47,738 nt of DNA, taken from positions 1 to 47,738 of the forward strand of contig CALSCQ010002215.1 in NCBI GenBank assembly GCA_943704525.1, read 5' to 3'. This DNA is from Pigoraptor vietnamica (lineage: Eukaryota > Opisthokonta > Filasterea). Shown in pieces: positions 1 through 24,675 of the stretch; the first letter of the stretch is position 1; each line of letters opens with the position of its first letter. The notes under the pieces are model-generated. The model saw only the letters and a list, made by a program, of their open reading frames with translations, searched no databases and was not told the DNA's origin. A program made the position numbers and the translations under genes.

Positions 1-896
1 CCGGGGGGCCGGCGGGGGGGGCGGGGGGTGTTGAGGGCCGGCCCGACCGGTGGCCGGCGTGCCGTGCAGTCTGCTGACGTGGCAGCGCCCGTTCATGTTC
101 GCTGCGGCAAATCCAGCGATCTTGTCAGCCACAATCTCTGCGCACGCGGGTGCAGAAATGGGGAAGTGACTCACCAAGCAATTACAAACGCTGCCTGACG
201 AGTGCTCGGCCTCTAATGCGCATGCCATCGGACCCTGCCGATTGATCTTACTCTGTCCCTTGCCGGGCCTACCGCCGGCGCCGCCGGGCCGCCGAATGCA
301 TATGGAACTTATCATAGTGATTTTGGTCCCATACGGTCAGTTCCATATGGGCTGTCTGAACCGACGGTGCGTGCCCTAAAGATAATCTATGTATATAAAT
401 AAGTCATCCTGGAGTTAGCTGCATCATGGCGTCCTCACGGCGACTAATCCGATGCTGCCTTTGTTCGCGCCGGTGTGCCGCAAGACGGCAAACTGACCGT
501 GACTGACCGTGACCATACCACATACCGTGACGCTGACGCCATGTTTCATGCATAATGCATCAAAATCGAAGGCACGCAGGGCTCGCCGTTTGCACTCAAC
601 GGACTCAACGGACGAGTGCTCAATACAGCGAGGGCGCCATGGGCGCCATTCGACCGAACAAAAAGGTACTGACCTGCCGTCCGCAGTTGGGCGTTGTGGC
701 GCACCCCGGATGCGCAATCAGCGAACGGGGTCACGTGCACGGCGACACCTCACGGTCACCATACCGGAACGGGGTTTTTTCTCGGACTGCGCGCCACTGT
801 TCGAGGCAAGCGCCTTCGAGCAGCCTTTCTCACTCACTTCAGCGCGCGCGCGTGCAGGGAGAGGGGCTGCTTCCCCCCTCCGCGGACGCCGTCGCC
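1..896. other. Gene-free left end
   Basis: I see no supportable gene here. The first 40 bases are almost pure G and C, which suggests low complexity at a contig end. The stretch 490-760 holds short degenerate repeats (several copies of a GTGACCGTGAC-like unit and CAACGGACTCAACGGAC). An 11-bp inverted repeat lies at 299-309 and 339-349. The open frames across 424-1280 on both strands overlap one another and show no family motif. Bases just upstream of 897 are presumably the promoter and 5' leader of the receptor kinase; I see no clear TATA box. Confidence 0.6.
299..349. repeat. 11-bp perfect inverted repeat
   Basis: CATATGGAACT at 299-309 is matched by its reverse complement AGTTCCATATG at 339-349, with a 29-base loop. 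It could form a hairpin or be a binding site. No element ends or target duplications are visible, so a mobile-element origin is not supported. Confidence 0.5.
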
Positions 897-3800
897 ATGC
901 GCGCAGGCGCGGTGCGGCGGGCGCGCCTCGGAGCGCTGGCAATGTTTGTCGTGCTGTCCGCCGCGTGTTTCCACCCTGCATCGGGAGAGTGGCGCGCGTG
1001 CCCTGCGCGCTTCTTTGGGCTCGCCTCGGACGACACGCCGAAGTCCTGGGACTACTCGTGCGGGACGGGCACGTGGCAAGGGTGTGTTGTCCGTTGGGTT
1101 TTGCACGGGTGGCTTGATCGCGTGGATGCGCAGCGATTCGCTGATGCGCTCTAGTGCCCGTTGCTCACTGAAATTGGTTGCGCAGAAAGCGCTTCACTGC
1201 CCTCTGCGATGTGCTGCCTGCGGGGAATGGCACCGCAGAGGTGCTGTCGGTCACACTGCGGTACGTGGCCCCTCCTAGCGTCGCTGGCAGCGAGTCGCTT
1301 GCCACGGCATGGCGCGAGGAGGCGTCTGGGAAGCAGACAACGACGCTCGTCGTCGGTCCCCCGGGCAGCACCGTGCGGCCGTCCACGCGCGACGGCTCAG
1401 ACGTTCCGAATGCCGACGTCATTGTAGTGAAGCGCGCCATCACCGCCAATTACACGTCCGCGCTGCTCGCGGCAGACCTGTGCGCACTCCCTGCGTCCGG
1501 AGGCACGATCGAAATCGAGGCAGGCACAGTGACAGATCCCCTCGCGCCCCTGCTGCCGCCCGACTCTGACGCGGAGCTCCAAAACACAACGCTTGCGCTT
1601 GTTCCGCGGGTCGCCGGTTCCGCCGTCCGTTTTGCGCGGGGCAGGACAGTGGGCCCCCTTGTCACGGTGGGCCTCGGCGCCAGCGTGGTGCTCGCGGGCA
1701 TCGCTTTTGAGGACACGGCGGGACCCGTCGTTTTGGCGCGCAATGGCGGGCGCGTTGAGCTGCGCGACTGCGTGCTGGCGCGGATTGCCTCGATCGGCGA
1801 CGATGACGCCATATCGGGCGCGGCGCACGCGACTGGCGACGGCTCTGTTCTCACTGCGGTGCGCTCGGTGTTTACAAACAACACGGCCTACACCGGCGGG
1901 GCGTCGTTGTATGTGTGCGAGGGGGCCACTCTGAGCGTGGACGGATGTCGCTTTGAAGGTAACCGCACCCCCGCAATCCCGTGTGACAAGCTTGTGCGCA
2001 CTCTGACACCTCCCGTTGCAGGCAACAAGGCGACGTTCGGAGGGTCCGTTGTGGCGGTCGACGCGGCGTCCATTGTGCTGGCGAACTCGACGTTCCGTAA
2101 CAACACGTGCACGGCGGACAACCTTGCGATGAAGGACACGCTCGACGACGTGCCCATATCGGCGTCGGGCGGCGCCGTGCTGGTCTCCGGCAGCAACGGC
2201 CACATCAGCGTCTCGGATTCGACATTCATCGGTGAGTGCTGATTACCGCACAGTCCCACGCCCCTCATGCAGTGCCGCTCACCGCCAGTCGTCGTGTGCA
2301 GGCAACAGCGCGGAGGCCGGCGGGGCCGTCTCGATCATGCAGTACAGCGGCCGTGGGGCGCCGGCTGTCTTCCAGCGGTGCGTGTTCAGGGACAATGTCG
2401 CGAGCGTGGCTGCGGGCGCTGTGCTTGTGCTCGAGTTTGTCGCGCGGCTCGAGTCGATGTCCGCTGGCTTTGAGGACTGCGTCAGCGCGGGTAACGCGGC
2501 CACGATGATGGGCGGATTCGCCGCGCTACTATCCACCGCGCGCGCGCACGTGTCGAACAGCGCCTTCAGCAAGGACGTTGCGCAGACTGGCGGCGTGTTG
2601 TGAGTATTGTCATGCGTACGCTGCTCCGTGTGTCTGGCGAAGGGCTGACTGTCCTCTCTCTCTGCAGTCACGTGTCCGCCGGCCGCCTTGTCGTGGAGGG
2701 TTCGACGTTCAGTGAGAGTTACGCGTACAGCGGCGGGTGTCTCCGGTTCGGCGAGAGCTCGGTCGGCGAAATTCGCAACTCGACCTTCATCGACAACGCT
2801 GCGAGCGATGGCGGCGGTGTTTTGGAGCTGGATGGCGCGGCGGGCGTGCTGATGGACGGGTGCGTCATGACTGGCAGCGAGTCGCGGCTGGGGGGATGCA
2901 TCACGGCGTATGGGAAGGTCAATGGGCGCGCGGGGACCACGTGGCTCAACGTGACGCGAACGTACGTCCACGAAAACAATGCGCAATTTGGCGCCGTCCT
3001 GTACGCTTCGCAGTACGCTGTGGGTTCGCTCACCGGCGTTGGCAAGGTGCGCGGCACATCGCCCTCGCGCACCGTTGCGCTCCGTGTCGTCGTCGACGCC
3101 TCTACCTTTGCGAACAACAGCGCGTACGTCGGCGGCGTGTTTGCGCTCGAGGGCAGCCTTAACGCGGAGGTGTCGAACTCGTCCATGCGCGGCAATCTCG
3201 CAGCCCAGGCGGGCGGCGCCGTGTACCAGACGAACATGGCGACCCTCCGCGTCTCTGGGGGCGACGCGAGCCTCAACACGGCCAATGGCTTTGGCGGTTC
3301 GTTTTACGCCGACTTTTCGTCGCATCTCTTTCTCGTCAACGCGACGGTTAGCGAATCGATGGCGCTGCTGAGCGGCGGCGCTGCATACGTTGCCCTTGGA
3401 TCGCGCTTGGACATCTCCAATTCCACCCTCTCGAACAACAAGGCGTACGTCAACGGCGGCAGTGTGTGCGTCGTGAGCTCGGCGACGGGCATCGTCTCCT
3501 CGTCGTCCATCTCCAAATCTCTCGCGGGCGAGTCCGGGGGTGGGTGTTCATGCGTGCCTCTTTGTGGTCGGGCTCCTGAAGCGGACTTTGCTGTTCGTGC
3601 ATTTGTGTGCGCGCTAAGCGACGCTTGCGTTTCCAGGCGCCGCATTTGTGGGATTCAGTTCGGACCTCGTGGTCATGGACTCTTCTCTCGCGAACAACTG
3701 TGCGCGGATGACGGGCGGTGCAGTGCGAGGGAGTGGCGACGGGTCCTTGACCCTCGTGCGCAGGTATGGCGGATCGCATTGCCCTGACCTACCCGCACGG

Positions 3801-6800
3801 ACACGCACTCGACGCAAACAGTAACACTCACGACGCACCCTCCTGCAGCACCGTCAAGTTCAATGCAGCGCGGTTTGGTGGCGCCCTCCACGCGCTCCTC
3901 CTCATCCGCATCAAGGCGGTCGATGTGTCGTTCCGCTACAACACGGCGCTGTACACTGGCGGAGCGATTCACATGGAGGTGCGTGGCCGTCGCGCCTCTG
4001 CATCTTTGCTCGATGCAGTGTGCTGTGCGTGTGCGTGGTAGAGCTGGAAATGCAGGGAAAAGAAGACATCCGATGATGAATGTGCCTTGCGCAGGATGCG
4101 ACCAGCCTCAGCATTCTTCGCTGCGCCTTCCACGCGAACCACGCGACGGCCGGGTACGGCGGCGGCATTCTCTTGGGCGGCGTGGCGCACCTGGAGGCGG
4201 TCGAGTCGAAGTTCACGGCCAACAGGGCCGCGGTGGACGGCGGGGGCGTGTGCTCCAGCGCCCTCGAAACGATTGCGAGTTCATGCTCGGAGCTGTTCCC
4301 TGAGCTGCAGACGGCGAATTCGGGCACTTTGCGCCTGTCGTTCACGAACTGCTCCGCAGTGGGCAACGCGGCGGCCGGTCGTGGCGGTTTTCTGCGCCTC
4401 GAGGGCGGCAAAACGGTGCTCGACGGCGGCTACTTTGCGAACAACACGGCAGACCAGGACGGCGGCGCGATTCACTTTATTGGCTATTCGCCGGTGCGGG
4501 TGCTTGGCGGCACGCAGCGCAGTACGGAAGCGCCACCCTCGGCGTCTCTGTTGATTGGCAACCTCACGCTGGAGGGTAATGGGGCCGGTAACGTGGGCGG
4601 GGCTGTGTACCTCTGGCAGGGTACGGCGGACTGCGACGTGACGGTGGGCCGTGTTGTGATCCGCAACAACGCTGCGGAAACGGGGGGCGGCGTGTTCAGC
4701 GAGACGCCGTGGTTTGTGCCGCACGTGATACTGCCCACGTGGGTCTACAACAACACGGCGCGCTCTGGCCTCGGCGGGGACATTGCCACGGCCGGATTGC
4801 GGCTGCATATCGAAGTGCCCGATGCTGTCGGCGTGCTGACGGCCGTGAACAACGCGCGGGCTCCCAACATCACGGCGCTGAATGTCATGCTCTGGGACAA
4901 GATGTTCGGCGGCCGCGCGTTCCCGGCGGAGGGCCAGCGGTTCTACTCGGGCGACATTCTACCCGCCATGAAGGTGTCCCTCCTCGACCTCACCGGACAG
5001 CCGTCGGCGTTCTTCCGCGGATCACCCGAGTTCGTCTCGGCCACTGTCGCGCCTCTCGGCGAAAGCAGCGGCGCCGCTCCGGTGCTCGTGGGAGGGGGGT
5101 CGCGGACGCTCGACCACGGCACGGTCATGTTCGATCGCCTCGGAATCCACGGCCCCGCGGGATCGTATGTGCTCAACTTTTCAATGGAGGCCGTGGGCAT
5201 GGTGCAGCGGTGGGTCGCCGTTACCGTCACCCTGTCGCCGTGCGCGATGGACGTCGGCCGCTACGAGGTCAGCGAGCGCGTGAGTGGGATCATGACCGTC
5301 ACGTGCGAGAAGGTGGTCCTCGGGGCGTCCTCGCGCGGGCTCAGCGACGGCCAAATTGTGGCGGCCGCAGTGCCGGCCGTGATTATCTGCGGCGCGATTG
5401 CCGTGGCGGCGCTTGGATTTGTGCGGCGGTACAAGCAGCGCGTCAACAAGGAAGCGCACGCGAAATTTGTGCGCGAGAGGATCGACGGCCACGACGAGCT
5501 GGAGGGCCTTGAGGTGCCCCGCGCGGGCATCAAGGTCGACGGCCAGATCGGCGAGGGGGTGGGTTTCCCCGTGTTGCTTGGCCAAGGACTGCTGTCTGTA
5601 TGCATCAGTGACAGAGGGAACTGATGCGATTGTGTGCGCAGGAGTTTGGCGTCGTCAGCAAGGCGCGCCTGTTCACGCCGACGGGCTGCCGCTTGTGTGC
5701 CGCCAAGGCTCTCCGCGAGGGCGCCAGCTTTTCTCAGCGCAACGCGTTTGTGCAAGAGGCTGAGATTATGCGCAAAGTGCCGCCGCACCCGAATGTTGTG
5801 GCGCTCGTTGGCACGTCGCTCCGGTGAGTGGCTGCAGCGTATGCAACGGACGCAGTGCTGGGATGTGACTGCGATGCTCACGCTGCGTTCGTCGCAGGGA
5901 GGAGCCGATGTATCTGCTGCTGGAGCTGTGCAGCGAGGGTGACCTGCGGTCTCACGTGACGGGCATTCCCGAGCATATTCAGGGCACGCCGGCCGTGCTT
6001 GCGCAGTTGCTCAGGTGGGCGCACGCCGATTGTGCGACGAGTCTTTGCTCACTCACTCGCACCCACTGCGTCCGATTGCTACTGACACAGGCTCCAATGC
6101 AGCTTTGCGTCCGACATAGCGAATGCGATGCACCACCTCAGCGAATGTCGCATCGTCCATCGCGACCTGGCGGCGAGGAATGTCCTCCTGCACACCACGC
6201 CCCAAGGCGGCCTCGTCGCGAAGGTGCGTACACCCTGGGTTCTGTTCGGTTCCTCGCAAACATCAACGGACTCATTCTTGCGCAGCTGAGCGATTTCGGA
6301 CTCAGCCGCGCCCTCAACCCCTCGGAGGACCAGTACTTCCGCCGGCGCACGCGTCGCCTGCCCATTCGGTGGCTCGCGCCCGAGTGCATCAAGCAGCGCG
6401 CGTTTTCCACGGCAAGCGACGTGTGGAGCTTCGGCATTGTCCTGTGGGAGGTGGGACTGCGCTGTGTGTGAGTGGGAGTGCGCTGCGTCTGAGCGACTGC
6501 GCTGTGAGTGTGGCGGTGCAGCGCCGAAGGGGGGTATAGTGTGGCAGCACAATTCGTGCATCTATGGGAGCGGCCTTGCAATGTGCGGCTCGTTCTCTAA
6601 TGCGTTCCTGTGAGCAGATGATGTCGTTTGGGATGCAGCCGTATTACGGCGTCGACAACCACCTGGTGTCGCGCCTCATCGTGTCTGGACACCAGCTCGA
6701 GTGTCCCGCGCACTGCCCGCCGGACCTCTACAATGTGATGCGCGCCTGCTGGCACCCCGATCCGAGCCAGCGCCCGTCGTTCGCAGACCTTGTCGAGAGC

Positions 6801-7367
6801 TTTGCGCTTGGCGGCGAGGCTGTATGTGTCGGTGCGGAGGCGGACACGATCAGCGTGGGACCCACGGACGCGCTACCGCCGGCTAAACCGGTCGCACTCC
6901 CGAGGCAGAGCTTCTTCGACTCGGTCGCAGAGTCGGTGCGCACTGCGTTTGGCGGCGCGCGGCGGAGCCTCCACGGCGATTTCGGCTCGGTGCCTGGCAC
7001 CGCGCGGCTGCAATACCAGCTCTCCATGGCAAGCCTGCTCCAGACGGCGTCCGCTGCTGAGCTGGGCGAGTCGCAGGCTGTCGTCGCCGCTCCTTCGGCC
7101 ACTGCGTCTCAAGCGGAGTCGGTGACACCAAGGCAGCACGAATACGACAACGTGCACTCGTCGGAGGACATGGCGGTCTCGTGGAGTGCGTCGGACACGC
7201 TTGGAACGTCGCAGTCGGCTACGTCCATGCTGAGCACGCCGTCGTTTCCTGCGCGCATCCGCACGTCGCTTCTCGCGTCGTCCGTGGGGGAGACGCAAGT
7301 TCGCAGGCAGAGTGTGGCGTGGGTCAGCCCTGCCGAGAACGGGAAATTGCTCGACAGCGATGCGTGA
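897..7367 (+). CDS. Receptor tyrosine kinase with a beta-helix ectodomain
   Basis: Twelve exons give 1,822 aa: 897-1081, 1186-2231, 2302-2599, 2668-3539, 3637-3763, 3849-3978, 4095-5558, 5642-5823, 5898-6014, 6091-6223, 6286-6450, 6618-7367. All phases close. Residues 1-30 form a signal peptide ending ACFHPASG. About residues 200-1000 hold many repeats with GG, SxF and NN/NxA turns and many NxS/T sites, typical of right-handed parallel beta-helices (POMP-like). One membrane helix lies near 1307-1328. The kinase domain (about 1365-1636) has loop GEGEFG, Lys1396, Glu1413, HRDLAARN (Asp1499), DFG (1521) and PIRWLAPE. HRDLAARN marks true tyrosine kinases rather than TKL. Tyr1535 sits in the activation loop; the C-tail has EYDNV (Tyr1749). 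The ligand is unknown. The acceptor before 6091 could instead be at 6103, also in frame. Confidence 0.88.
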
Positions 7368-7759
7368 TGTAACTTGTTTGTTACTAATCACGTGATAAAG
7401 TGCGTTGCCATGAAGGTCCCTGCCTCCTCCTAGCAACACCCGACACAGTGTATTTGAAAATACGTCAAGAAAATTTTTATGATTTCCAGGCTCGATTCAA
7501 TATAACTGGCCCTCTCGTTTTCGTTTGAACAGATGCCCGGCTTCAGTCTGCACTTGCACTCCCACACGACCTCTCCATTAGAGCGCGGGAGCTGACGGCA
7601 GACGCGTGTTTGTCACGCACACGCGCGGCACATAACAAGCAGTCTTGTTGGCGCACTGTCACGCGAGAAGCGACACTCTTGCCATCACGTGACGAATGGT
7701 GTCGGTTCTGAGCGAGACCCAAAGCTAGTCGTCGCGTCGCGCCTTTGCGCAGCACCGAC
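7368..7759. promoter_or_regulatory. Spacer and probable dynein promoter
   Basis: This 392-base gap holds the 3' region of the receptor kinase and the likely promoter of the dynein gene. It has AT-rich patches around 7450-7500, the palindrome ATCACGTGAT at 7387-7396, and TCACGTGAC at 7685-7693, about 67 bases before the dynein ATG. The second motif recurs in other intergenic regions of the window. I see no gene here. Confidence 0.5.
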
Positions 7760-10700
7760 ATGGCGTCGCCGCAGGTGAGAGCTGCCGTTGGGTTGGGATT
7801 TGTTAGGCCAAACTGAGAGCTGTTTTCACCCCGCAACCATGCCGCGTCTGCGAAGCGCGTTGGCTGTGCATGCGTGTGCATGTCTGAGACTATTCGCTTG
7901 CGCTGCTAGGATGCACTGCCGGCGATTGCCCGTAAGTCTCCGGACGATCTCGCGCGCCATCACCGCATCAACTCTTCCAAGCCGCTTAAGGCGGGGCAGA
8001 CGGTGGATGCAAAGAAATTGCTGTCGCGTCTCTACAGCACGAATGGCGCCATTCCGCCGACCATCACGGCCGAGTCGATGCGCTCGAAGGGTGCGTGCAC
8101 GTGCTCGCGTGCCATGTGTGTCCCTGGGCGCGTTCGGCTCTCCTCTCAACCGCATCCTTGCGGCCGCGCGTTTCCAGGCGCGCACATTGCACCCACAAAG
8201 CAGCGCAAGGTCACGTTCCCTCAGCAGCTGCCGCCCATCACGCGCGATGGCGAGCCGTTGCCGCGCTCCGGATTCCGTTCGCCTCCCCCGCAGCCGCCAG
8301 CACTCGCCGCGACACCGCGCACGCTTTCTGCGGCACAGCAGCGCGAACTCTTCCGGCTGATTGGTATGTGCACTATTGCGGTGCGGCTGTGCGTCGTGCG
8401 ACAGTGACGCATGCGCAAGAGACGGAGGCAGAAAGGCATGGCCGCGTGTTGACGCGCGTGGCGTTGTGTTCTGTGTTTTTCGCAGAGAACTTTGAGAAGC
8501 ACTCGGAGTCGTACGAGTTCAGCTACCTCGCGCCCATCCGGGGCGTGCGCTTCAACCCCTATCGCATGCGCATCGTGACACACGCCGAGGTGGACCCCGA
8601 GAACTACTTCACCATCAGCAACAACGGCGTCACGCACTACTTCCACGGCGAGATTGGTGCGGCGCGGCGGCATGCGCGGCTGTGCGCGGAAACTGTCGTT
8701 GACGCGAAAAAAAAACGCAAACCCACGCGCACTGTCCTTTACGCTTACCCGCCTATTCCTTCGCAGACATCACGCCGTTGAATGTCTGGGTGCGCGAGTA
8801 CGAGACGTTCCACCGGCTGCTCAAGATTCCGATCTTCTCGCAATACCGCATGTGGAAGCCGTTTTCGGTGTGGCGGAGGAACGTGACGCACAAGAAGATG
8901 GTGGCGTGCAAGGAGGCCCTCGCGAAGAACGTCTTCCTCCTCAACCCCGTGCTGCAGGTCACGCTCATGCGCGTGCACGACGCCTGCCGAAACTTCGCCG
9001 CCAAGCGACTGTTCCGCGTGGACGCCGACGCCACCTACACCCTCAAGGACTTTGTGCGTGTCCAGGAGGACCACATGCGCCAGCTGCGCACCGAATTTGC
9101 CGCGTTTGAGGTGCGTGGCATGTGCGTTTGCATATGCAGCGCTGTGCGTTGTTCGCTGGCTTGCGTGAGCGATCTGTGCGGCCTTGGAGTAATCACGCGT
9201 GCGTGGACAGGCGGAGGTCCAGCTGAACGTGCTCGATGCGTGCAAGGCGGACGTGACGGCGGCCGGCTTTACGCTCGAGGCGGACATTTCGGAGCTGACG
9301 TACATCCAGCAGGCCGAGCTGCGCGCCAAGTACGCGCGCATCGCCCACTTTATCCGCCTGTGCGACTACCTCGTGTTCTCTGCATTCCGCAGCCTCGTAA
9401 TCGGGTCCGTCACGGACCTCTGCGCGCTGGTCGCGTGCGAGGTGCCTAAGATTGTCGTGGTGGGTGCCTCGCATCACTCGCCGCATACGAGTGCGGCAGT
9501 GCGCGGCGGAGTGCGTTCCGTCTGGCTGTCTGCTGATGCGCTGTGTGGCCGCCGCAGGTGAACGAGGAGCGGAAGGAGGTGCCCCGCGCGCCCCTCTTCC
9601 ACGTGCAGATTGAGCTGCATGCGCGGCAGCTGCGCTTCAGCCCGGGCGTCGGCCAGTTCCAGTGGATTATGGAGAAGACGTTCCAGTCGTTCCTCGACTT
9701 CGTCGCCGGCATCCGAAACCTCGTCTCGCTGGTGGGCACCGGGTCCCTGTTCCCGTCTGTCTCCCGTGCACTACTGCTGCTCTTCAATTCCATCTAACGC
9801 TCACCGTCCGCGCAGCCCATGTATGAGCAGTTCACGCGGCCGCGGTTTGTGAGCAGTGCCGGAGACGAGTCGCTCGCGGACGGACCCCAGCTGGGACCCA
9901 CGGCATTTGACGACGACCACAAGTACCAGGCAGCCGTCGCCAAAACGCGCGACTCTGTGGCGCTTGCGTTTGAGCGGTCTGCGCACTACGCGGCGTCGTT
10001 TTCCGAGAGCCTCTCTGTGTACTTGGAGAACACGTCGCTGGACCTCGACAAGCTCATGGCGGCGCAGACGAGCCCGGCGTTCTTTGGGGAGCTGCTCGCG
10101 CGGTTCAACGGCCAGTGCGCTATGATGCAGGCGATGCCCGAGACGCAGCAGGTGCTCTTCCTCCGCGTGGACACGCGCGGGCTGAAGGAGCTCTTTGTGC
10201 CGTCGCCGCTCGGCTGCTTCACGCACGTGCGACAGGGCATGCCGGGCCTCATTGCCTCGCGCACGCGGGCCCTGCTGCAGGAGATCAACGCGAACCTGCG
10301 CCAGGTGTCGTCGATTCCATCGACCGTGGACGAGTTTCTCGAGCACATTCGCTTCCTCGACGCGCTTAAGGGCACTGTCGGCGCGCTCGCCAACCAGTGC
10401 GCGGAGCTCGAGGGCATGTTTGCGCTCACGCAGGAGTACGAGATCTCGCTCAACGTGGAGGACTACGCGCTGTTCCAGACGCTGCAGCCCACTTTTGTCG
10501 CTCTGAAGGACGCGATTGCGGCGGCGGACACGATTCGCGAGGAGCGCACGGGCGTGTTCTCGGAGGAGGTGATGCGGCAGGTGGAGCGGCTGCGGCTCGA
10601 GGCCCTGCAGACGCAGCAGAACCTGCAGAACCCAATGCTCGCCAGCCGCGACTCGGGCGTGGAGACGGTCCTCCAGTTCCTCGGGAAGATCGAAACGGCC

Positions 10701-13700
10701 CTCGCGCGGTTTGCCGAGCGCGCGGGTGTTCTCACGTCGCAGCAGAAGGAGCTTGGACTCATTGCATCGCGCCACGAGGAGCTCGAGCACCTGCGCCGCG
10801 ACTTTGACCTGAAGCGGACGCTGTGGACGTCGCTGTCGGAGTGGGACTCAACGCTGAGGTACGCACAGTTCCGTTGTTGCGGGTGCCTTTTTTGCTGTCC
10901 GTGCGCATCTGATGGCATTGTTGCTCACTTGTGTGTTCCGTGCAGCGCGTGGCTGGAAACGCCGTTTCTCAAGCTCGACATCGAGGCCGTGGGCGCGGAG
11001 CTTCAGCGCTACCGCCGCGTGATACAGCAGAGCCGTGCCGGGCTGCCGGGGAACAACGTCGTCCCCCTCCTCGACTCGAAGGTGTCGCGCTTCGACGACG
11101 TCTTCCCCGTCATCAGCGACCTGCGGAACCCCTCGCTGCGCGCGCGGCACTGGGACGAGATGTGCGCGGTTATCGGGCAGGACTTTTGGCGCGAGGGCGA
11201 CGTGCGCCTGTCGGAGGTGCTCTCGCTCAGCATTGGCCGCTTCCGCGAGCCCGTCGCGCGCATCTCCTCGAAGGCGTCGAGCGAGGGCGCGCTTGAGGCG
11301 ATGCTGAACCGCGTGGATGCCATGTGGAAGGAGACCGAGTTTGTCGTCAAGCCCTACCGCCCCGACCTGAAGGTGGGTTGCAGCGTTGTCGTTGTGAGGT
11401 GTGGATGGCGCGCGAGGGTCTATGGTTTGTTTGCTCACGCGTCGGGTCCCGCAGGACATGTTTGTGCTCACAAATGTCGACGAGATCTACGAGAAGCTGG
11501 ACGACAGCCTCGTGACCATCGGCGCCATCCGGGGCAGCAAGCACATTGGGCCGATTCGCGGGCAGGTGGAGGAGTGGAACCGGCTGCTGCGCGTGTTCTC
11601 GGGGACGCTCGACCTGCTGCTCACGTGCCAGCAGCTGTGGATGCGCCTCGAGGCCCTGTTTGGCATAGTCGACCTGCAGCGGCAGATGCCGCAGGAGTAC
11701 CGCCTCTTTGCGTCGGCCGACAAGAGCTTCCGCGAGATCATGTGGCGCACGAACAACAAGCCCAACGCGATGCGCGCGGGCACGGCGTTTGGGCTACAGG
11801 ACACGCTGCAGCACAACATCACTGCGCTCGAGGGCGCAGAAAAGTGCGTTGACGAGTATCTTGACGCGCGACAGCAGATGTTCCCGCGCCTGTACTTCCT
11901 TTCGCGCCGGCAAGTGCTCGAGGTGATTGGCCAGAGCAAGAACCCTCTGAGCGTACAGTCGGTCGTCGGCTCGCTGTTCGCCGGCATCGAGGCGCTCGAC
12001 TACTCGGTGCAGAACAAGGCGTACGAGTTCAAGGGTGCCGTGTCGTCGGAGGGCGAAGTGCTTGCGTTTGCAAAGACGGTCAAGCCGCGCAACACGGCGG
12101 ACGTGTGGCTCAGCGGTGTCGAGGACGCCATGGTGTCGTCGCTCAAGCGCACGCTGAAGCAGTCGCTGCTCGAATTTGACGGCAAGACGCAGCCCGAAAT
12201 GATTGGCTCGCTGCCGGGACAGGCGATTGCGCTGCACTCGCAGATTGCATGGACCCGCGTGGTCGGCTACTCGATCGAGACGGGCGCGCCGGCGGAGAAG
12301 TTCACGTCGATGCTCGACGAGTGCGAAGACGTGAGTGCACTGCAGCTTTCAGACCCTGACCCGTGTTCTTTCGTGTGGCTCGCTGACGTTTTGTGTTTTC
12401 TGCGCAGCGCATCGACGCCCTGTGCGACATGGTCCGCGACGACCCCGACGCCCTCCGCCGCAAGACGGCCGCGTCGCTGCTCACGCTGGCAGTGTACCAG
12501 CGCGACATCTTGGGCGTGCTGTCGCAGCTACCGGTCCCCGCGGAGGCATCGACGTTCGAGTGGCACGCGACCCTGCGCTACTATTGGGAGCCGGACGAGA
12601 ACACGGCGGTCGTGCGCATTGGCGACGGCACTTTCAAGTATGGCTTTGAGTACCTGGGCGCCTGCCAGCGGGCCGCCGTCACGCCCCTCACGCAGCGCTG
12701 CTACCTTGCGCTGGCCACGGCCATGCAGCACAACGTGGGCGTGGCGAGCGCGGGGCCGTCTGGGGTGGGCAAGACGGAGATGATGCGCGACATGGCTCGT
12801 GCCCTCGGGCGCTTCTGCGCGGTTTTCAACTGCTCGGCGGGCATGGATGCGGGCACTGCCTTCCGTCTGTTTGCGGGTGCGGGCCAGTCGGGCTGCTTCA
12901 GCATCCTCGACGACGCCGACCGCTCGCGTCCGGACGTGCTCTCGGTCATCGGACAGCACATTCGCTCGATGAAAATCGCCAAGGACTCCGGCGCAGCGTC
13001 GTTCTCGCTCAACGGCCGCGACGTGCGCTTGGAACCGTCGGCGGCCGTGCACCTGACGATGCGCTCCGGCGCTGAGCGGCGCAGCAAGATTCCGCCCAAC
13101 CTGCGCGCCCTCATGCGCCCGTTTGAGGCCGTGGCGCCGCCGCAGTCGTTTGTCGGAGACGTCTTGCTGCTCTGCGAAGGCTTTGACGAGCCCCAGCGCC
13201 TGGCGCGGCAGCTCGAGACGATGCACGGATTGCTGGCAGAGCGCCTCTCCGGAACCGCGGCGCACTACGACTGGGGTCTCCGCGCGCTGCGGGCCATTGT
13301 GTCGCTGGCGGGGCAGCGGCGCCGCGCGTGGATGGAAACGACCGAGGACGAGATTGTTGCGTCATCCGCGTACGACGTACATTTCCCGCGCATGCTGGCC
13401 GAGGACGCCCCCGCCCTACGCGCCGCGGTCGCCGACGCCTTTCCTGAGGCGCGCTCGCTGCAGTCGGCGTCGGTGGGACTCCTCTCGGCCTCGCTCTCGG
13501 CATCGAGCAGCGCCGCGCGCGAGACGTTCCAAATGCAGCAGAACTACTTGCACTCGGAGGGTGACGCGCGTGCCCTGCGGCAGGCCATCACGGCGGCGAT
13601 CACGGCGGGCGGACTGCAGCCGGTGACGCGCATCGTGGACACGGCCGTGCGCCTCCGAATGGCGCTCGACTCGCTTCAGCCCGTCGCCATTGTCGGACTG

Positions 13701-16700
13701 GCAGGTTGCGGGAAGACGGCCACGTGGCAGACGCTCGCGCGCGCCATGAATGTCCTGCGGGCGCTGCCTGCGCGGGAGGCCGATCGTAACCTCGCCACCC
13801 GCCGGCTGCACTCGACGTCCGATGGTGCGCTCACGCCTTCAGCGGCTGTCAGCGCGACTGGGAAGCCAGAGACGCCTCCGCCCGAGCAGAGCGTCGAGGC
13901 CGTGTGGTGCGCGGCCGTGCGCGCCGGGGTGATGACGCCCTCGGAGCTTTTTGGGGAGCGCCGCGAAGGGGGGCAGTGGGCGGACGGCGTGTTCCCTGCG
14001 CTCTTCCGACAGGAGGCGCCCGAGGGCACACTGGAGCGGTGGATTGTGATTGACGGACCCGTCGACGCGGACTGGTCGGAGCAGCTCAACACGCTGCTGG
14101 ACGACACGCGCACTCTGTGTCTCCCATCCGGCGAGCGGCTCCGCATGCCTGACAACATGCGCATTCTCCTCGAGACGGTGGATCTGTCGACCGCGTCGCC
14201 CTCGACGGTGACGCGGTGCCGCGTCGTGGCGATGGACCGGCCCCAGGACTACTGGATGCCGATGGCCCAGTCGCGCATAGCACGCACGGCCGCGCGGCTG
14301 GGGTATGCCGACGACCTGGTGCCGGACCTTCAGCGCCTGTTTGCGACGGTCATTCCCGCCGGGCTGAAGTACGTGCGGGACTCCGGCGAGGAGCCGCTGC
14401 CGACGCAGGATCTCGGCATTGTGGAGAGCATCTGCACGCTCCTCGACGCCGTGGCCGTGGTCCCGAAGGACGCGCCATTGATGCAGGGCGAGGACGTGCG
14501 GCGCATCGTCCACGGCGCCTTCGCCTTTGCGTTTGTGTGGGGCGTCGGCGGCAGCTTTTCGGACGCCGCGCGCGTATCGTTTGATCGGTTTGCGCGCGTG
14601 GCGCTGGACGGCCTGGAATGCAACTTTCCCGCGTCCGGCTCCGTCTTTGATTACCACTTCAACAACCGCGAGGGGACGTTTGTCAAGTGGGCGGACCTCG
14701 TGCCGACGGGCGCGTCGTCCGAGGCCGTGCCTCGCTCGCACGACATGCTCTTTACGACGCCGCAGACAGTGTGCTACGACACGCTCATCAACTACTATGT
14801 CGAGCAGGGACGCCCGGTGCTCCTCACTGGGCCCCCGGGGACGGGCAAGAACCAGATCGCCGCGCGCTACATGCAGCGCCGCCGCGAGAAGGAGGGCTTC
14901 CTCACCGGCTCGGTCGCGTGCCACGGGCGCACAACGGCGGACCATCTGCGCCAGTACCTAGAGGGGTCGCTGGTGCGGCGCGCGGACGGTGGCCTCTCGC
15001 CGCCCCCCGGTCGCCGCATGCTGATGATGCTGCTCGACCTAAACGCCGACGCGGACGACGAGGCGGAGCGGTGCGGGGACGGCGTGTGCTGGGGCACGCA
15101 GATGGAGCTGCTCGCGCAGATTGCGTCGCAGGGGGGCTTTCATGCCAAGTGGACGCCGACCTTCCGCCGCCTTTCGGGCGTCTCGTTCATTGCGACGTGC
15201 GGATCGACGGAGAGCGGGCGGCGCGCTGTCCCTGAGCGCCTCTCCCGCCACGTGGCCGTGGTGTGCGTGCCGGTGCCCACGCAGGAGACGTTCCTGTGGA
15301 TTGCGAACACGGCGCTGCAGGGCTTCCTCGCGCCGTTTGCCGACGAGGTGCGCGCCATTCGCAACCAGTTTGCGTCGGCCATTGTGGCGCTGACGCAGCG
15401 CATCGCGGGCGACTTCCCGCCGGTGCCGACGCGCAGCCACTACATCTTTAGCCTGCGCGAGGCGGCGCGCGTCCTCGTCGGCATGACGCAGATGCGCCCG
15501 CTGGAGGTCTTCACGAAGGTAGACGCCGTGCGCGTGTTTGCACACGAGTGTGCGCGCGTGTTTCACGACCGCTTTGTCGATCCCCTCGAGCGGCGCCGCT
15601 TCAACGCCGCCTTCGCCGAAATCCAAGAGTCGTTCTTTGGCGCGTCCGCGGACAAGATTACCGCGGCGGGCGACCTCGTGTTCGGCGCCGTGGCAGGCTT
15701 CAATGGATCGACCGTCAAGTCGCCCGTGTACACGGAACTGGACGTCGAGAAGCTCTCGGCGTTCCTGCAGGAGAAGCTGGACGAGTACAACGTCAAGTGC
15801 CAACAGTCGGTGCGCCTCGTCTTCTTCCCGGAGATCACGAGAACGTTTGTCCGCATCCACCGCCTCCTCCGCCAGCGGCGCGGTTCGGCACTGCTCGTCG
15901 GCGCGCGGGGTTCGTGGCGGTCGTCGCTCGTGCGTTTTGCGGCGTACCTTGCGAGCATGGCCATTGTCGTCGTGGACGCGTCGAAGTGGTACGGCGTGGA
16001 GCAGTTGCGGGAGGACCTGCGCAAGGCCGCGCGCGCCGCGGGGTCGCTCGGGGTGGACATTGTGCTGCTGTGCAGCGAGTCTGTGCTGGAGGAGCCGTCG
16101 TTCCTCGACGACCTGAACTGCATGCTGGGCACGGGCACCATCCCGAACCTGTTCAAGGCCTCCGAGCGCGAGGAAATCATCGCCGAGGTGCGCCAGTTTG
16201 CGATTGAGGCCGGCTGTCCGGACACGCCCGACTGCGTCACGGCGCACTTTTACGAGCGCGTTAAGGATCGCGTGCACGTGGCCATGTGCTGCTCGCCGGG
16301 TCCCCTCCTTGCCCGCCGCCTGCGCGAGTACCCTGCGGTGCAGTCGCGCTGCTCGGTCGTGTGGGTGGACGGGTGGACCGAGGAAAGCCTGGCGGCGATT
16401 GCGAGCGTCACCATCGAAGGCCCGCTCGCTGCCGATCACCTCGGGGGCATCGACGTCGCGCAGAAGGTCGTCGCGGTGTGCACCAAGGCGCACGGGTGCG
16501 TGACCCGCATTGCGTCGCGATACTCGGACGAAACCGGTCGCCAGTTTCACGTGACGAGCGCCGCCTACGACGACATGCTGCAACTGGTGGCGCAGCTCAT
16601 GGAGAAGCGGCGAACGACCATTTCGACAGGTGCGTCACGGCCCTTTGTGGCGTGTGGCTGTGGCGTGTGGCTTCTTGTGACGTCCGTCGTTACGTCTGTG

Positions 16701-19700
16701 TGCCGCCCGCACAGCTCGTTCGTCTTGTCTTTTCCGTGCATTCTCTGACCCGTTGTCTGTTGCGCAGGCCTCGCTCGCTTTGGCGCCGCCGTCGACCGCG
16801 TGTCGGCGCTCCATCAGCAGCTCGCCAAGCTCCACCGCGACTTCGGCAACGTGGAGCTCCAGATGACGCAGCAGAAGGCGGATATTGAGTACTACGTCAC
16901 GCGCCTTGTCGACGAGCGCAAGCTGCACGAGGACGCGCTGGCGCAGATTTCAACCGACGAGGCCTTTGCGTCCGACCTCGACGCGGAGATCGAGTCGCTG
17001 GTGCGCCTCACTGAGGAGGAGATTGCGGCCGCGGTCCCGGCGCTCGAGGGCGCGATCGCGGGTGTGCTGGGCATAGAAGAGGCGGCGATGACCGACCTGC
17101 GCACCATGCGGCGGCCCGCAGTCACCGTGCAGCGCGTCATGGAGGCCGTCTGCGTCGCGTTTGGCGTCCCCGCAGACTGGCAGTCGGGCGTGCGCCTCCT
17201 TGAGGACCCGAAGTTTGCGTCGAACGTGGCGAACTTCGCGCGCGATGCCGTGCCCGAGGTCGTCTTCCGCAAGCTCATGACGTACACGGAGACGCCCGAT
17301 TACGATCCCGACCAGATCGGAAAGCGCTCGGCTGCCGCGCAGGCGCTGTGCCTGTGGACGCGCGCGCTGGTGAATTATGCGAAGGCGTCGCGCAGCGTGG
17401 AGCCGCAGCGGCAGAAGATTGCCAAGATGCGCGCCGACCTCAAGGAACGCCAGGCGCGCGCGTCGGAGCGGCGCGGGCGCCTCGCGCAGTCGACCGAGGA
17501 TCAGGCGCAGCTGCAGCGCGAATACAACGACAAGCTCAAGGCCGTCGACGTCCTGAAGGTCAAGTACGACGAGCTCCTTGCGAGGCGCGAGCAAGGCGCG
17601 GCGGTGATTGCGGGCTTCGCGGGCGAGTACTCGCGCTGGATGGAAACGGTGCATCTGCTGAAGAAGGAGGAGAGCACGGTCGTCGGCGACACGGTCGTCG
17701 CCGCCGCGTGGATCGCGTATGCAGGCGCGCTGACGCAGGAGTACCGTCGCCTGCTTGTCGCGGAAATCCGCGGCCTGTGCGAGCAGGAGGGCCTTGCGTG
17801 CTCGATGGACGTGACGGTGCCCACGCTCGTCGCCGACCCCAACGACATGGCGTCGTGGCGGCAGAGCGGCCTCGGCGCGACCGAGACGGCCGCCGAGAAC
17901 GCGACGCTCGTGACGCGCTCGCTGCGATGGCCGCTGCTGGTGGACCCGCAGCTGGAGGGCGCGCGCTGGATCACGCGCCTCGAGTCGCCAAACGGCCTTC
18001 GAACGCTCAAGTGCTCCGACGCGGGCTTCCTGCGCGCGCTGGAGTCTGCGGTGCGGCTGGGCCAGCCGGTGCTGCTGATGGACATTCCCGAGGGCGGCGT
18101 GGACCCCGCGATCATGCCGCTGCTGCGCCGGCAGATCTACCGGCAGCATGGGCGCGTCCTTGTGCGGTGGGGCGAGACAAGCGTCGACTTCGACCCCAAC
18201 TTTCGCCTGTATGCGTGCGTGCGGCGAGCCAACCCGCGGCTCTCCATGGACTTCTGGTGCGTGTGAGCTGCCTGTTCCCAACATTTTCGAATTGCTGCAC
18301 ATGTAACTTTCACTGCGCCGGCGTATTGCTGATGCTGTTCTGTGTGGTGTGTGCAGGCAAGCCTTCAATGTCGTCTCGTTCCGCGAGTCGCCCGAGTGGA
18401 TTGAAGACGCGATGCTCTCGGCGGTATTTGGCCACTTCGCACGCGACGACGAGGACCGCCTGAGCGAGCTGGTTGTCGACACGGCCCGCTTCCGCACGGA
18501 GCTCGACCGCGTCGAGGCGCTTGTGCTCGAGCGGCTGTGCGCCGGCACGGGCTCTGCGATCGAGGACGATGCGCTCATGGCGGAACTTGGCGTGGCGCAG
18601 AAGCAGGCGGACGCGGCCCACGCGCAGATGGAGAACGCGAACAACGAGCGCGCGGCGATTGCGGCGCGGCGCGAGAAGTTCCGTCCGCTTGCTGCCAGCG
18701 GCGCGCACATGTACCTCGCCACGGACGAGTTTGTGCGCCTCAACCCCCTCCTCCAGTTCTCGGTGCCCGACTTTGTGAACCTCTATGCGCTGGCCCTCCG
18801 CAAGTGCGTGGCGGGGGCGCGCGACGACGGGTCTGTGGACGTCGACGCTCTCCTGAAGGTGGTTCCCGCGCAGCTCTTCCAGCACGTGTCGCGCGCGCTG
18901 CCGGAGGACGAAAGCCGCGCGTTTGCGATTATCTTTTGCGGGCGCATCCTTCGAGCGCGCGGGGCCATTAGCGATACGGACTGGCGTGTGCTCCTCGCCA
19001 CCCACCGCCCCTCGGGCGTGTGCCCGCCGCGCCCGGACGTCGACTGGCTAACGCCCGAGGCGTGGGAGGCGGCGATTGGGCTTGGGCAGGCCGTGCCTGC
19101 GTACGAGCGCCTGTGCGCGGACCTCAGCGCCCGCACGCGAGTCTGGCAGGTGCGTTTTGCGACCTGTGTGCTTGTGTGGTGTAGTTGTGCAGCGCGTTTG
19201 CTTTGCGCATTGCGTCCTCTGATCCCCGTTTCGTCACGCAGGCGTTTGGTGAGAGTAAGGTGCCCCACCGCGAGCCCCTCCCCGATCCTTGGGCCGCCGA
19301 ACTCAACGACATTCAGCGGCTGATAGTTACCAAGACGCTGCGTCCGGACATGGCCGTGCCCGCAGTGCTCGACTGGGTGGAGCGCGCCATCGGCGAGGGC
19401 TTCGCTCCCCGCGCCTTTGACCGCTTCCGCGGCATTTTCCAAGAGACGTCACCGTCGACGCCGCTCCTGCTCATCCTCGGCGAGGGCGCGGACCCGGCGG
19501 ACGAGCTCCTCGCTTTTGCCGCCGAGCAGGGGAAGGCCGCGCGCATGCACGTGCTTGCGCTCGGTGAGGGCGCGTACGAGGGCGCGGAGGCGCTGCTGGA
19601 CAAGGCCGCGAAGACGGGCGACTGGGTGTTCCTGCAGAACTGCCACCTCGCGGGCTCGTGGATGGCACGCCTGGAGGAGATTGTGACGACGCTGTCTGGC

Positions 19701-21626
19701 GCGGAAACCCCCGTGCACCACGACTTCCGCCTGTTCCTCAGCTCGGAGCCGTCGCCGGACTTCCCCATCACGCTCCTCCAGCAGTGCGTCAAGATGACGT
19801 CCCAGCCTGCCACGGGCATTCGCGCCCGCCTGTCACGTGCCATTGTCAACTACGAGCGCCCACCGGCGGCGCTGGCGGGAAACACCGAGGCCGTGACAGC
19901 GTGGCGCCGCCTGACGTTCGCCGTCGCCATGATGCACGTCGTTCTCACCGAGCGCGTGCGTTTCGGCGTCGGCACCTCCATCTCGCGGATCCTCGCGTTC
20001 AGCGACAAGGACCTCGTGATGCTTGGCGTTGCCGTCAATGCGGCGGCTGTGCGCGCGGCGCCTCTTGCGTCGCAGCTGCGCTACCTGCGCCATGCCTTCG
20101 CGGAGGTCATCTACGGGGGCCGCCTGGCCGACCAGCGCGATCGCCTTCTCCTGTCGCAGTTTGCCGATTCGTTCCTCTGTGAGGGCGCGCTCTCGGCTGG
20201 ACACGCGTTCAGCGAGGCTTACCGCACACCTGAAGGGTCCACGTACGCCGACTTTGCCCGTTACGTCGACTCGCTCGGCGCGACGACGGACATTGGCATT
20301 TTCCGCGTGGACCCCGCCGAGGCGATTGCGTCGAACGCCCGCGCCGGCCGTCGGCTGCTGCGCATGGCCCTCTCGCTGCAGCCGTGGCATGTTATTGGCA
20401 CGCGCGCGGCGGTGGCAGAGCGCCTTGCGCTGGAGCGTGCCCACGCGGTGCTATCGGCGCTGCCGCCGTTTATCGAGACGGAGAATGCCTCCGAAATGGC
20501 GCTGCCGAAGGACGGGAAGGGCCGCCTCACACCGCTCTCTGCGTTCGTTCTCCGGGAGGGCCTTCGTTACAACGCGCTCATCACGCGGCTCAAAACAGGC
20601 TGCGATGCCGTCATTCGCGCGGCGACAGGGGGCTCCCTCCTCACGACGCAAGTGCAGCGCCTCTTCGACGCCCTCGCGGCCGACCAGGCACCCGCCGAGT
20701 GGCGCTTTGGGTTTGTGCCGACGAACAGTGCGCTCATAGCCTTCCTCGAGGACTTGAACAAGCGCGTGGCCTTTGTGCGCGACTGGATCGCCAAGGGGCC
20801 GCCGCCCACGGTGTGGCTGCCGGCATTCTTCAGCCCGCGCGGTGAGTGGTGGTGCCGGGATGGAGTGCGGCTATTGTCTTTCTGATGACACTGACGTTGT
20901 CGATTGCGCGCAGCATTCCTGGCGACGGTGCTCCAGGCGCACGCGGTGAAGACAAGCACGCCCGTCGACCGGCTCACGTTCTCCCACCGCGTGGACAAGA
21001 GCCCGCTGAAGCCGCTTGCCGATGGCTCGGTTGCTGTGAGCGGCCTCTACCTTGAAGGCGCTGACTTTGACGACAACACGCTCAAACTTGTGGATACGCA
21101 TGTGGCGCACGGTTCGCAGGTGTGTACTGCGCGAAAGCCACCGTGTAGGATCAAAAACGCTGACTTTTTTTTTCCTGGGACAGGCCCAAATGCTTCCTGC
21201 GATCCGTTTCACGCCGACCACCGACGCGGCGGCAAAGACGCTGTCGTACTGCTGCCCAATGTACGCCATGTCTTCCGCGTGCGTCGAGAGTGGCGCCCGC
21301 TCGTCAGACGGTATGTCGACAATTGTGAGCAGTGCTTGCTCGGACGAAGCCGTCTGTACTCATCGTGCCACTCACTTTGCGCAGAGCGACTGTCGTCCAC
21401 CATCTGCGACGTGTGGCTGCCGTCAGACCACGGGGCGGTGCACTGGCTGCCGCGCGGCGTCGCCCTCGTCTGCCGCCCCGCCGACCACGTGCAGCCGAGG
21501 GCGGCGGCCGCGGCGGCGCAGGCAGCAGCGCCAGTGCGCGCCACGAGCCGCGCGGGCCTCGAGGGGCACCGCGACAGCCCGATCAGCGACGGCCTGGCCA
21601 CCTCCGCCATTCCCGAATCCCAGTGA
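7760..21626 (+). CDS. Axonemal inner-arm-type dynein heavy chain
   Basis: Seventeen exons give 4,114 aa: 7760-7774, 7910-8090, 8178-8363, 8486-8656, 8767-9110, 9211-9459, 9558-9731, 9816-10858, 10946-11372, 11455-12330, 12408-16629, 16768-18256, 18357-19149, 19242-20841, 20914-21119, 21184-21310, 21385-21626. Length fits single-headed inner-arm dyneins; the N-terminal tail resembles the DNAH6/DNAH14 group, though exact class is uncertain. In order: tail, linker, AAA1 (Walker A GPSGVGKT, 1338-1345), AAA2 (GLAGCGKT, 1652-1659), AAA3 (GPPGTGKN, 2030-2037), AAA4 (GARGSWRSS, about 2387), coiled-coil stalk with microtubule-binding tip (about 2630-2960), AAA5, AAA6 and C-terminal domain. AAA1 is odd: its Walker B reads ILDDAD where dyneins have CFDEFN, and the sensor TMNPG reads TMRSG. 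AAA2 keeps the usual GPVDADW. The protein should work in axonemal arms, but its main ATPase site may be weak or dead. The first exon is only 15 nt. Confidence 0.92.
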
Positions 21627-21834: not shown

Positions 21835-24675
21835 ATGGCGGACGGCGCCCCGTGCGACTTTGTCGACATCATGGACACGCTGCCCGCCATCATCCCCGAA
21901 AACCCGTGCGCGGAAGGCGTGGGCGCGCGCGCGGTAGGCCCGCTTGGCTTCGAGGTGCACGCGGCGGATCCGCTTGAAGTGCATGGGACGGGCGACATGG
22001 CGCCGCACTCGCCGCACGCGAGCGCCGACGGGTCGGGGTGGACCGACGTGGCGGAGGAGCCGCCGGCCAAGCGACGGCGCGAGGGCGACATGGGCGAGGC
22101 GTCCGGGGACGACGCTCCACCGGTGGCCTTTAAGGCGCGTGCTATGCTCGCGCTGCCTCGCTGATTTCGGATCGCGTTCACTAACAGATTGCTTCGCTTG
22201 TGCTGCAGATAACGCGGCCAGACACCTCCACGCACACATGGACATGCCTCGGACCAGGTCAACCGCGGCTATTCATTCAGCGACGCGCTGGGGGAGGTGT
22301 GTGGAGCGCATCTGTGTTTATGTGGACGCGTGCATGCAGCTTCGACGTGTCTGTTGTCTGCATGTCCACCACTTTATGGCTGACGTGCCTCGCCGCAGAC
22401 CTGCCCGTGTCGTCCGGCAGCAAGAGCAAGCCGATGCGCCTTCCCAGCGACGCACAGGACGTACTCTCCTTCCGCAAGTGCGCCGGTCGCCCGTCCGCGG
22501 ACTTTCTTGCGCGCTTTGTGGGCATGAGCGAGGCCACGCACGTGATTCGCCTCAAGCGGAAGAGGAACGAGCAGGACGCGCTTCCGAACAGCCGCAAACA
22601 CTTTATGCAGCAAATTCGCGACGCCTTTGTCGCCAATTACCATTCGAACGTGCGCAGGGACGCGGTGGGGGCTCCTTGCCGATGTATGGCCTGTGGTGCG
22701 TATGCGTGCTGCGCATCATTGACGCTCGTTCTTTGTTACCCTGGCAGCGCTTTCGATTCGGGTCCCTCCTGCTGGACCGCCTGACGGACGCGCGGGTCTC
22801 GCTCGTCATCAATCTTTATCGCGATGGTTTCACCCTCGGTTTGGACGAGTCTGTCGTGCATCGGTACGTGCAGTGCTCCAGCGCGCGAGACCCACGTGTG
22901 CGCCCCTTGCGATTGTGTGCCAACAGGGGCTGCGCTCGCAGGTACGATGGGCCGGCGCGCGATTTTTTTGCGGCGATTGACGCGCAGCTGATTCCAGTCG
23001 AGCTGTCGGACATTGTTGATGCCCTCCCCGCGCGGCACTTTTGCAACGGAGGGATTGTCGTGGAAATGCGGGACGCGCGCTTCATGCCGGCCCCTGCGCA
23101 GGCGCGCGCCGTCGGGACCGGGATGCCGGGGTCGCAGGGCCAGGGGGCTCCGGTGCTACCGTCGTTTGCGCCAGCGGCCGCGCTGCCTCTCGACGCCACC
23201 CGCCCCTCCGTGCGTCGCGTATTGCTGCGCGCTTCTCCGTCCGCACTGCTAGGCGACATAATGCAGGTGTGTTCAAATGCATGGCATCGCGTGCAGGGCG
23301 ATTGTGTGCGACGGTGATGGCGTTCTCACACTGCTTTCCGTCACGTCGTTCAGCTCGCCAGCGAGGGGGAAGCTGGCAGCGCACACTATTCGGACGATGA
23401 CTGCGTGCGGCTCGAGCGCAAGCTGCTTCTCCAAGTGCGCGCGCCGATTTGCCTCGATCCCTCAACGCTCGTCGCGTGCGTTGCAAACGCGCAGACGTAT
23501 GGCGCTCGCAAAATAGCCGCCGCTCTGCGCGGGCACACGCGACGGAGTTGGTTTCCGACTGGGCTGGACGGCGTTCGCCGGTCGCGTTTTGCGCTCATCA
23601 ATTACCTGGCGCGATCGAAAAAAGCTGCGGTGCCGTTGGTCGAGTCGTTGGCCGAACCGAAGCGGGAGCCGGCGACCTCTGCGGCCGCTAGTCCCTCTGG
23701 GGATCGTGGGGTTGACGCGCGGGATGCGGGCGAGGGCACCCGCGAGCGCCCGGGTGCGCGCAACTCGTTCGACCCGCTGGAGAGGTGCGATGCCGATGCC
23801 AGCCCATTGCGTCTGTTGTGCCAGTCGCTGTGTTCCTGCCGCAGCTCACTCTGTGCGCGATGCAGGACGGCCATTTTGGCAGCAGAGGCGCGCATCGAGC
23901 CGCCAAAGACTGGGCCGAAGTTTCCGCCCAGGCGGGCACTGCCGCCGTCGTCTACGCAGCAGCCGGTCCCCGTGCGCGTCGTCCGGTTTGAGTCACGGCC
24001 CCCGGCTGGACAGACGCAAACAGCCGTTACATCTTGTTCTCTGGAAGTGCGGCAACATCAGAACGGAATGCACGAGTGCTTTGTGCGCACGTGGCAGGGC
24101 CAGGACACGGGCCAGAACGGGGAACTTTTCCTGTAAGTGTGCACAACGACATGCCTGTGCGCGCTTGTCCCGTCATCCCGCCATTCACTCGGCTGTGTTT
24201 GTGTCGCGCAGGTTCTACTTGGGACTGCGGGAGGCCGCCATGGGCTACGTGACGCAGTTTAAGCGTCTGTACATGTCCGAGGGCAATGCGTGCACGCTGG
24301 ACAAGGAGATTTCGATGGCAGACCTTGCTCGCCAGCACGAGGAGAGGCAAAAGCAGGCGCAGGCGGCGCCGGCCCAGTCGCACTCGCAGCCCGCGCAGTT
24401 GCCCTCGCAGTCCCCGTCGCAGCCTGCCCAGCCGCCATCGGCACAGCCTCCGGCAGCACATGCCGCCGCGCGCACGGCGAATGCGGTGGGAATGGGCGCG
24501 GGGATGCCAATGGGTGGCGCGTCCATCCAGCAGCGTGCCGTCGCCGCCCTCTCGGCCGCGCAGCAGCAGCACCTCATACTACAGCAGCAGCAGCAGCAGC
24601 AGCAAGCGCCTGCTTCGCTGGGCATGGGGCTCTCGGCGCCCGTGCAGGCCGCCATCCAGGCGGGCAATGCGAACA

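Follow-up and report, generated by a model that had tools for sequence, protein, structure and literature searches.

The window analysed here is a stretch of 47,738 nucleotides from Pigoraptor vietnamica. We identified in it a plus-strand gene, at 897-7367, with the layout of a receptor tyrosine kinase. A three-frame translation over 841-7441, with introns placed by eye, resolves the gene into 13 exons and 12 introns and yields a single open reading frame of 1801 residues. The ATG at 897 and the stop codon at 7365-7367 agree with the gene ends given earlier for this DNA from its letters and open reading frames (hereafter the sequence-only reading). The features of the gene are as follows:

897-1081, 1186-1958, 2022-2231, 2302-2599, 2668-3539, 3637-3763 and 3849-3978, plus strand: first seven exons of the whole gene, GT-AG introns, open frame
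4095-5558, 5642-5823, 5898-6014, 6091-6223, 6286-6450 and 6618-7367, plus strand: remaining six exons, completing the 1801 amino acids
897-986, plus strand: signal peptide, residues 1-30, from sequence and a hydropathy window at residue 11, with the cleavage point set by eye
1721-4739, plus strand: beta-helix-like repeat region with a 27-residue period, residues ~241-1080, introns inside, from repeat pattern, autocorrelation and profiles
4767-5324, plus strand: membrane-proximal domain, residues ~1090-1275, without a Pfam match and beta-sandwich-like by eye only
5355-5423, plus strand: transmembrane helix, residues ~1286-1308, from hydropathy
5532-6800, plus strand: tyrosine kinase domain, residues 1345-1613, in six exons, from Pfam PK_Tyr_Ser-Thr (PF07714, E 1.2e-77), PDB matches and a tree
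6334-6336, plus strand: activation-loop tyrosine Y1514 (SEDQYFRRR), a likely autophosphorylation site by analogy with receptor tyrosine kinases in general
7143-7145, plus strand: C-tail tyrosine Y1728 (HEYDNVHS), a possible SH2 docking site

All 12 introns are canonical GT...AG introns of 62-167 nt. The GC content at third codon positions is 0.73-0.88 across all 13 exons and the pooled introns have 0.59 GC; the single frame and the uniform third-position GC support the gene model. Intron 2 is 63 nt long, a multiple of three, and free of stop codons. We treat it as spliced out as joining the exons re-forms a repeat unit (FEG joined to NKATFGG), and a longer protein form retaining it is possible.

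The order of signal peptide, beta-helix-like repeats and complete kinase domain, as proposed in the sequence-only reading, is borne out by the one reading frame, Pfam and hydropathy. The strongest hydrophobic segment spans residues ~1286-1308 (hydropathy 2.62), and weaker windows above 1.6 occur at residue 11 (the signal peptide, 1.68), at 216-220 (1.98) and at 421-422 (1.66). The earlier description of one membrane helix therefore stands for the strong segment but, given the windows at 216-220 and 421-422, is not the sole reading; a single membrane helix is likely, and other readings exist. Sequence and hydropathy together give the arrangement of a receptor tyrosine kinase (signal peptide, ectodomain, single membrane helix and cytoplasmic kinase), qualified by the weaker window at 216-220. 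The tail that follows the kinase has 188 residues and contains two tyrosines only, Y1685 and Y1728.

The next gene downstream, on the same strand, encodes a dynein heavy chain (9819-20882; DHC_N2, AAA_6, AAA_8, Dynein_heavy and Dynein_C), whose start lies at ~7760 by eye. An axonemal coiled coil match in the window reached 22.2 of the 27 bits required and, below its cut-off, hints at a flagellum. Open frames of the window over Pfam cut-offs encode Spt20_SEP (21944-23314), an APH phosphotransferase (41815-43035) and, on the minus strand, PB1 (43204-44121).

Kinase domain and its class

The kinase domain contains GEGEFGVV, CAAK, HRDLAARN, DFG and LPIRWLAPE, among them the two motifs (HRDLAARN and PIRWLAPE) that the sequence-only reading had picked out. 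Read off the sequence, the catalytic residues are intact (glycine loop, Lys, Glu, HRD and DFG). The best 60 of 2529 matched PDB sequences are tyrosine kinases, including EGFR, FGFR4, FAK, RET, EphA3 and IGF1R.

The kinase tree comprised 47 profile-aligned rows: 32 TK, 8 TKL and 7 serine/threonine kinases. The TK rows were the window kinase, 27 others from the same genome, EGFR, FGFR4, MuSK and the Src-Abl ancestor, so that only four TK references came from outside, one of them a reconstructed ancestor. Six TKL rows came from the same genome and were joined by CTR1 and BRI1; all seven serine/threonine rows were from the same genome. TK rows were split from the remainder with UFBoot 96 and SH 0.948, and the window kinase lay on the TK side; the TKL group had UFBoot 77 and SH 0.709. 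On its sequence, then, the window kinase belongs to the TK group and not to the TKL or serine/threonine kinases, as the tree proposed as a check in the sequence-only reading now indicates. Where the window kinase has HRDLAARN, the TKL rows of its own genome carry, for example, HRDLKSPN.

Within the TK rows, 27 kinases of the genome formed a clade (UFBoot 99, SH 0.927) that includes the window kinase and leaves out a Src-like one. This clade contains a clade of 9 (UFBoot 100, SH 1.0) and a clade of 18 with the window kinase (UFBoot 98, SH 0.959). The exact place of the window kinase among the 18 is weakly supported, with UFBoot 52 for a grouping of the other 16 kinases without L067.

The repeat ectodomain

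An ad hoc repeat pattern matched 25 times in the 1255 residues of the ectodomain, whereas 2000 shuffles averaged 1.6 matches and never exceeded 7; as the pattern was derived from the same protein, this count is descriptive only. Over residues 241-1080, the autocorrelation of glycine peaked at lag 27 (0.238, against 0.166 at the top of 500 shuffles, lags 15-44), and those of N, A and FILV likewise peaked at lag 27, yet inside the shuffle range. With two overlapping or weak matches removed, 12 of the 22 successive repeat spacings were 26-28 residues and one more was 54.

Pfam Chlam_PMP matched one short stretch of the window protein (27.1 bits, cut-off 20.6), and Beta_helix did not match it at E 1. 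A profile made from 14 two-repeat segments had as its best match among PDB sequences 7w5z_U2 (E 1.2e-22, 6 stretches), a 3634-residue ‘Transmembrane protein, putative’, and also matched Rhombotarget A at E 0.017; both are matches at the level of sequence. Searched singly against PDB, the ectodomain sequence returned only Rhombotarget A, at E 0.19. We discounted a match to pertactin, which came last of six at E 4, behind three chance-looking ones at E 0.38-0.51. A whole-genome Chlam_PMP search gave nothing at E 0.001 and was set aside as insensitive, as it also missed the window's own match.

Related ectodomains in the same genome pass Pfam Beta_helix on contigs C1333 (47.3 bits, cut-off 25.9) and C1046 (49.8 bits, 4 stretches), and that of locus L049 falls just under the cut-off (22.4 of 25.9 bits). 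The C904 ectodomain passes no Pfam model, its Chlam_PMP score of 16 bits being below cut-off, and Beta_helix was unreported for C904 and L008. Bacterial and archaeal genome contigs were searched with short exact patterns, an approach that finds close relatives only; one of 31 pattern-matched stretches passed, from Methanobrevibacter thaueri (28% identity, E 3e-11). This stretch (L100, 3001-3753) is aligned with the repeats of window exon 5.

These periodicities and matches suggest that the ectodomain forms a right-handed beta-helix of ~840 residues, in which each 27-residue repeat would make one turn. Its repeat signature, with Chlam_PMP over its cut-off, is shared with the chlamydial polymorphic outer membrane proteins and with adhesin-like beta-helix proteins, surface proteins of bacteria and archaea that are not known to carry a kinase. 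The window protein differs from them in its attached kinase.

Related putative receptors in the same genome

We searched the whole assembly (32.5 Mb, 1395 contigs; scores for the best candidates only). The ectodomain query gave at least 47 exon-level matches, 8 of which are the window's own exons, and the kinase query at least 148, of which 5 are its own. A query made of L049's membrane-proximal domain, membrane helix and N-lobe gave at least 75 matches, and by hand count at least 28 of these run from the membrane-proximal domain to the glycine loop (27 without the query's own gene). This query misses the membrane-proximal domain of the window protein and matched only its N-lobe (E 1.2e-4).

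A repeat model built from the window was run on 17 candidate and 13 control kinase loci, with 20 shuffles each. It scored above all 20 shuffles in 13 other kinase-bearing contigs (C327, C542, C761, C645, C465, C865, C717, C443, C1333, C83, C904, C1076 and C1367), C1076 being represented by two overlapping loci. Repeats and kinase are linked by position only on C1367 (ectodomain 7799-9181, membrane-helix match 9914-10201, kinase 12179-12358). C1046 and C456, the two GPCR-like contigs, also exceeded their shuffles. C184 (L046) is family-like by eye, yet its score lay under its shuffles, with 7 single stretches passing. The controls (L001-L007, L043, L047, L052, L056, L058 and L062), several of which have little ectodomain and whose frame is not always the kinase frame, peaked at 1.9 bits; two rose slightly above their shuffles, each on a single weak stretch, L006 (1.5 versus 0.7 bits) and L056 (1.9 versus 0).

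At 10 loci (L008, L042, L045, L046, L048, L049, L053, L054, L066 and L095), a single frame spans over 500 residues, a membrane-helix-like segment and a glycine loop, and 9 of the 10 pass the repeat model. Because these paralogues hold both parts in one frame, we regard ectodomain and kinase as one gene, in support of the fusion proposed from sequence. The C327 kinase is 46% identical to that of the window, and one C327 frame holds the ectodomain and the whole kinase. The nearest layout is on C904, where the ectodomain matches window residues 621-1329, across the membrane-proximal domain, at E 1.4e-29 and is followed downstream by GSGEFGVV, HRDLAARN and LPVRW pieces.

The clade of 9 (L001-L007, L056 and L058) is sister to the window's clade of 18 in the kinase tree and differs from it in having no clear repeat signal, with the weak stretches of L006 and L056 noted above. 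Pfam found an EGF-like domain in L007 and nothing outside the kinase in L003, L005 and L006; we therefore dropped the label ‘EGF/FN3-type’ for this clade, of which Pfam backs only the EGF-like domain of L007. Inside the clade of 18, L043, L047 and L052 (C446, C788 and C1015) are closely related kinases (UFBoot 100), with no repeat signal in the little ectodomain sequence examined. The sequence upstream of L043 and L052 is kelch-like by eye, and ectodomains may have been swapped.

The best reading of these sequences is that beta-helix receptor tyrosine kinases have radiated within this lineage, with the window gene as one divergent member. The pairing called uncommon in the sequence-only reading is real, in that a beta-helix-like ectodomain does sit on a TK, but it is not a lone oddity, as around a dozen genes have it.

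With its twelve introns set by eye, the model is built from genomic sequence, so that a secreted beta-helix gene and an adjoining kinase gene might have been read as one. We consider such an artefact extremely unlikely, given that exon 4095-5558 by itself takes in repeats, the membrane helix and the beginning of the kinase and that the 10 paralogous loci repeat this arrangement in one frame. Hardly any weight falls on the idea of a TKL serine/threonine kinase merely resembling a TK: PF07714 takes in TK and TKL alike, but the UFBoot of 96 for the TK split, the TK motifs and the best 60 PDB matches listed, all TK, argue for a tyrosine kinase. The repeats might also build some other solenoid than a right-handed beta-helix, for the window's own evidence consists of a single short Chlam_PMP stretch and a profile match at the level of sequence. 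This too is very unlikely, as related ectodomains in the same genome pass Pfam Beta_helix and score with the window's repeat model.

Proposed function and known systems

We propose that the gene probably encodes a type I receptor tyrosine kinase whose beta-helix ectodomain binds a ligand or surface and which signals through SH2 proteins. The ~840-residue beta-helix would present a long rod-like surface for binding, and the membrane-proximal domain would link it to the single membrane helix. Binding would cluster receptors, the clustered kinase domains might then phosphorylate one another at Y1514 and at tail tyrosines such as Y1728 (YDNV), and SH2 proteins could dock on the phosphorylated tail. 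Clustering, autophosphorylation at Y1514 and docking at Y1728 are suggested by analogy with animal receptor tyrosine kinases and with RTKB2 of Monosiga; ligand binding and what is sensed are likewise matters of analogy.

The EYDNV of the C-tail, noted in the sequence-only reading, is present at Y1728. The pattern pYxN is that of Grb2-type SH2 domains, and YDNV fits it; with two tail tyrosines only, docking at this site is a thin suggestion. Microbial beta-helix surface proteins often bind hosts or surfaces, and for this reason our best guess is that the receptor may recognise prey, microbes or substrate. It may likewise sense glycans or surfaces, as put forward in the sequence-only reading.

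Alternatively, the protein may be mainly an adhesion or anchoring receptor, in which the beta-helix grips substrate or prey as bacterial and archaeal adhesins do and the kinase only reports attachment. Archaea such as Methanobrevibacter have adhesin-like proteins, and the sole relative from the close-relative pattern search of bacterial and archaeal contigs was that of M. thaueri; integrin beta genes also occur in the same genome. A like ectodomain upstream of class C GPCR exons is a signalling output and favours a sensor, and we hold the anchoring role possible but, on balance, unlikely.

These GPCR exons lie on C1046 (L016 and L097) and C456 (L018 and L098), where a beta-helix-like ectodomain precedes exon pieces. 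Once assembled by eye, these pieces give matches to Pfam 7tm_3 (class C GPCR) with E 2.5e-43 on C1046 and 2.6e-42 on C456. The DNA examined downstream of the repeats on both contigs gave no kinase match at E < 0.5. From order and strand we infer that ectodomain and 7TM exons form one gene on each contig. We speculate, with considerable doubt, that a unicellular relative of animals evolved a large set of beta-helix receptors resembling bacterial or archaeal adhesins, with one kind of ectodomain plugged into two unrelated outputs, class C GPCRs and tyrosine kinases; about a dozen of the latter are seen here, and there may be dozens. Such a set might serve in microbe or prey recognition in parallel to animal receptor signalling.

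The window protein shares with animal receptor tyrosine kinases (EGFR, FGFR, MuSK) the type I topology, the membrane helix, a TK domain with HRDLAARN and tyrosines in the activation loop and C-tail. It differs from them in its beta-helix-like ectodomain, and its kinase sits in the 27-kinase clade of its own genome rather than with any of the four references. It is already known that receptor tyrosine kinases of unicellular holozoans can combine ectodomains in ways that differ from those of animals; Monosiga brevicollis RTKB2 is likewise a unicellular organism's receptor, in lineage-specific families with ectodomain combinations unseen in animals (PMC3584944). RTKB2 differs from the window protein in its Cys-rich, hyalin, SCR and EGF modules and RM2 tail repeats, the parts consulted making no mention of a beta-helix; it is an active kinase controlled by autophosphorylation, and a Src-family SH2 domain bound to its tail domain when this was phosphorylated (PMC3584944). 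Another study reports 22 PTKs in Acanthamoeba, seven with predicted membrane segments, and PTK homologues in Thecamonas (PMC4053784). TKs as a class therefore occur outside the holozoans too.

In the literature searched we found no protist receptor tyrosine kinase of the beta-helix or pectin-lyase kind, and ‘beta helix’ and ‘pectin’ are absent from the main text of PMC8662651 and PMC12716839; an earlier description in kinome papers is possible. The beta-helix ectodomain on a TK may thus be new, whereas unusual ectodomains on the receptor tyrosine kinases of unicellular holozoans are not. The ectodomains of receptor tyrosine kinases are not the same in animals and in their unicellular relatives. 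A family with a microbial-type, beta-helix-like ectodomain, found also upstream of class C GPCR exons of the same genome, offers concrete ectodomains for ligand tests, and turns the recognition of prey or microbes into an early use of receptor tyrosine kinases that can be tested.

The taxonomic ranges of the T-box, integrin beta, SH2, PTP and Src-like genes found in the same genome suggest a unicellular holozoan. An apusomonad origin (Thecamonas), which integrin beta would also fit, was set aside because the strong T-box matches and the Src-like SH3-SH2-kinase gene speak for a holozoan. SH2 domains turned up in 27 exon-level matches spread over 21 contigs, and PTP gave 16 matches, with E 5.4e-83 for the best. 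There were 6 matches for integrin beta (best E 2.1e-51) and 11 for T-box (best E 1.1e-64), each of these two sets with one match under its cut-off. It also encodes a Src-like protein (L062, C68:58798-61929) with an MGC- N-terminus, SH3 and SH2 domains and a kinase that groups with the Src-Abl ancestor (SH 0.970).
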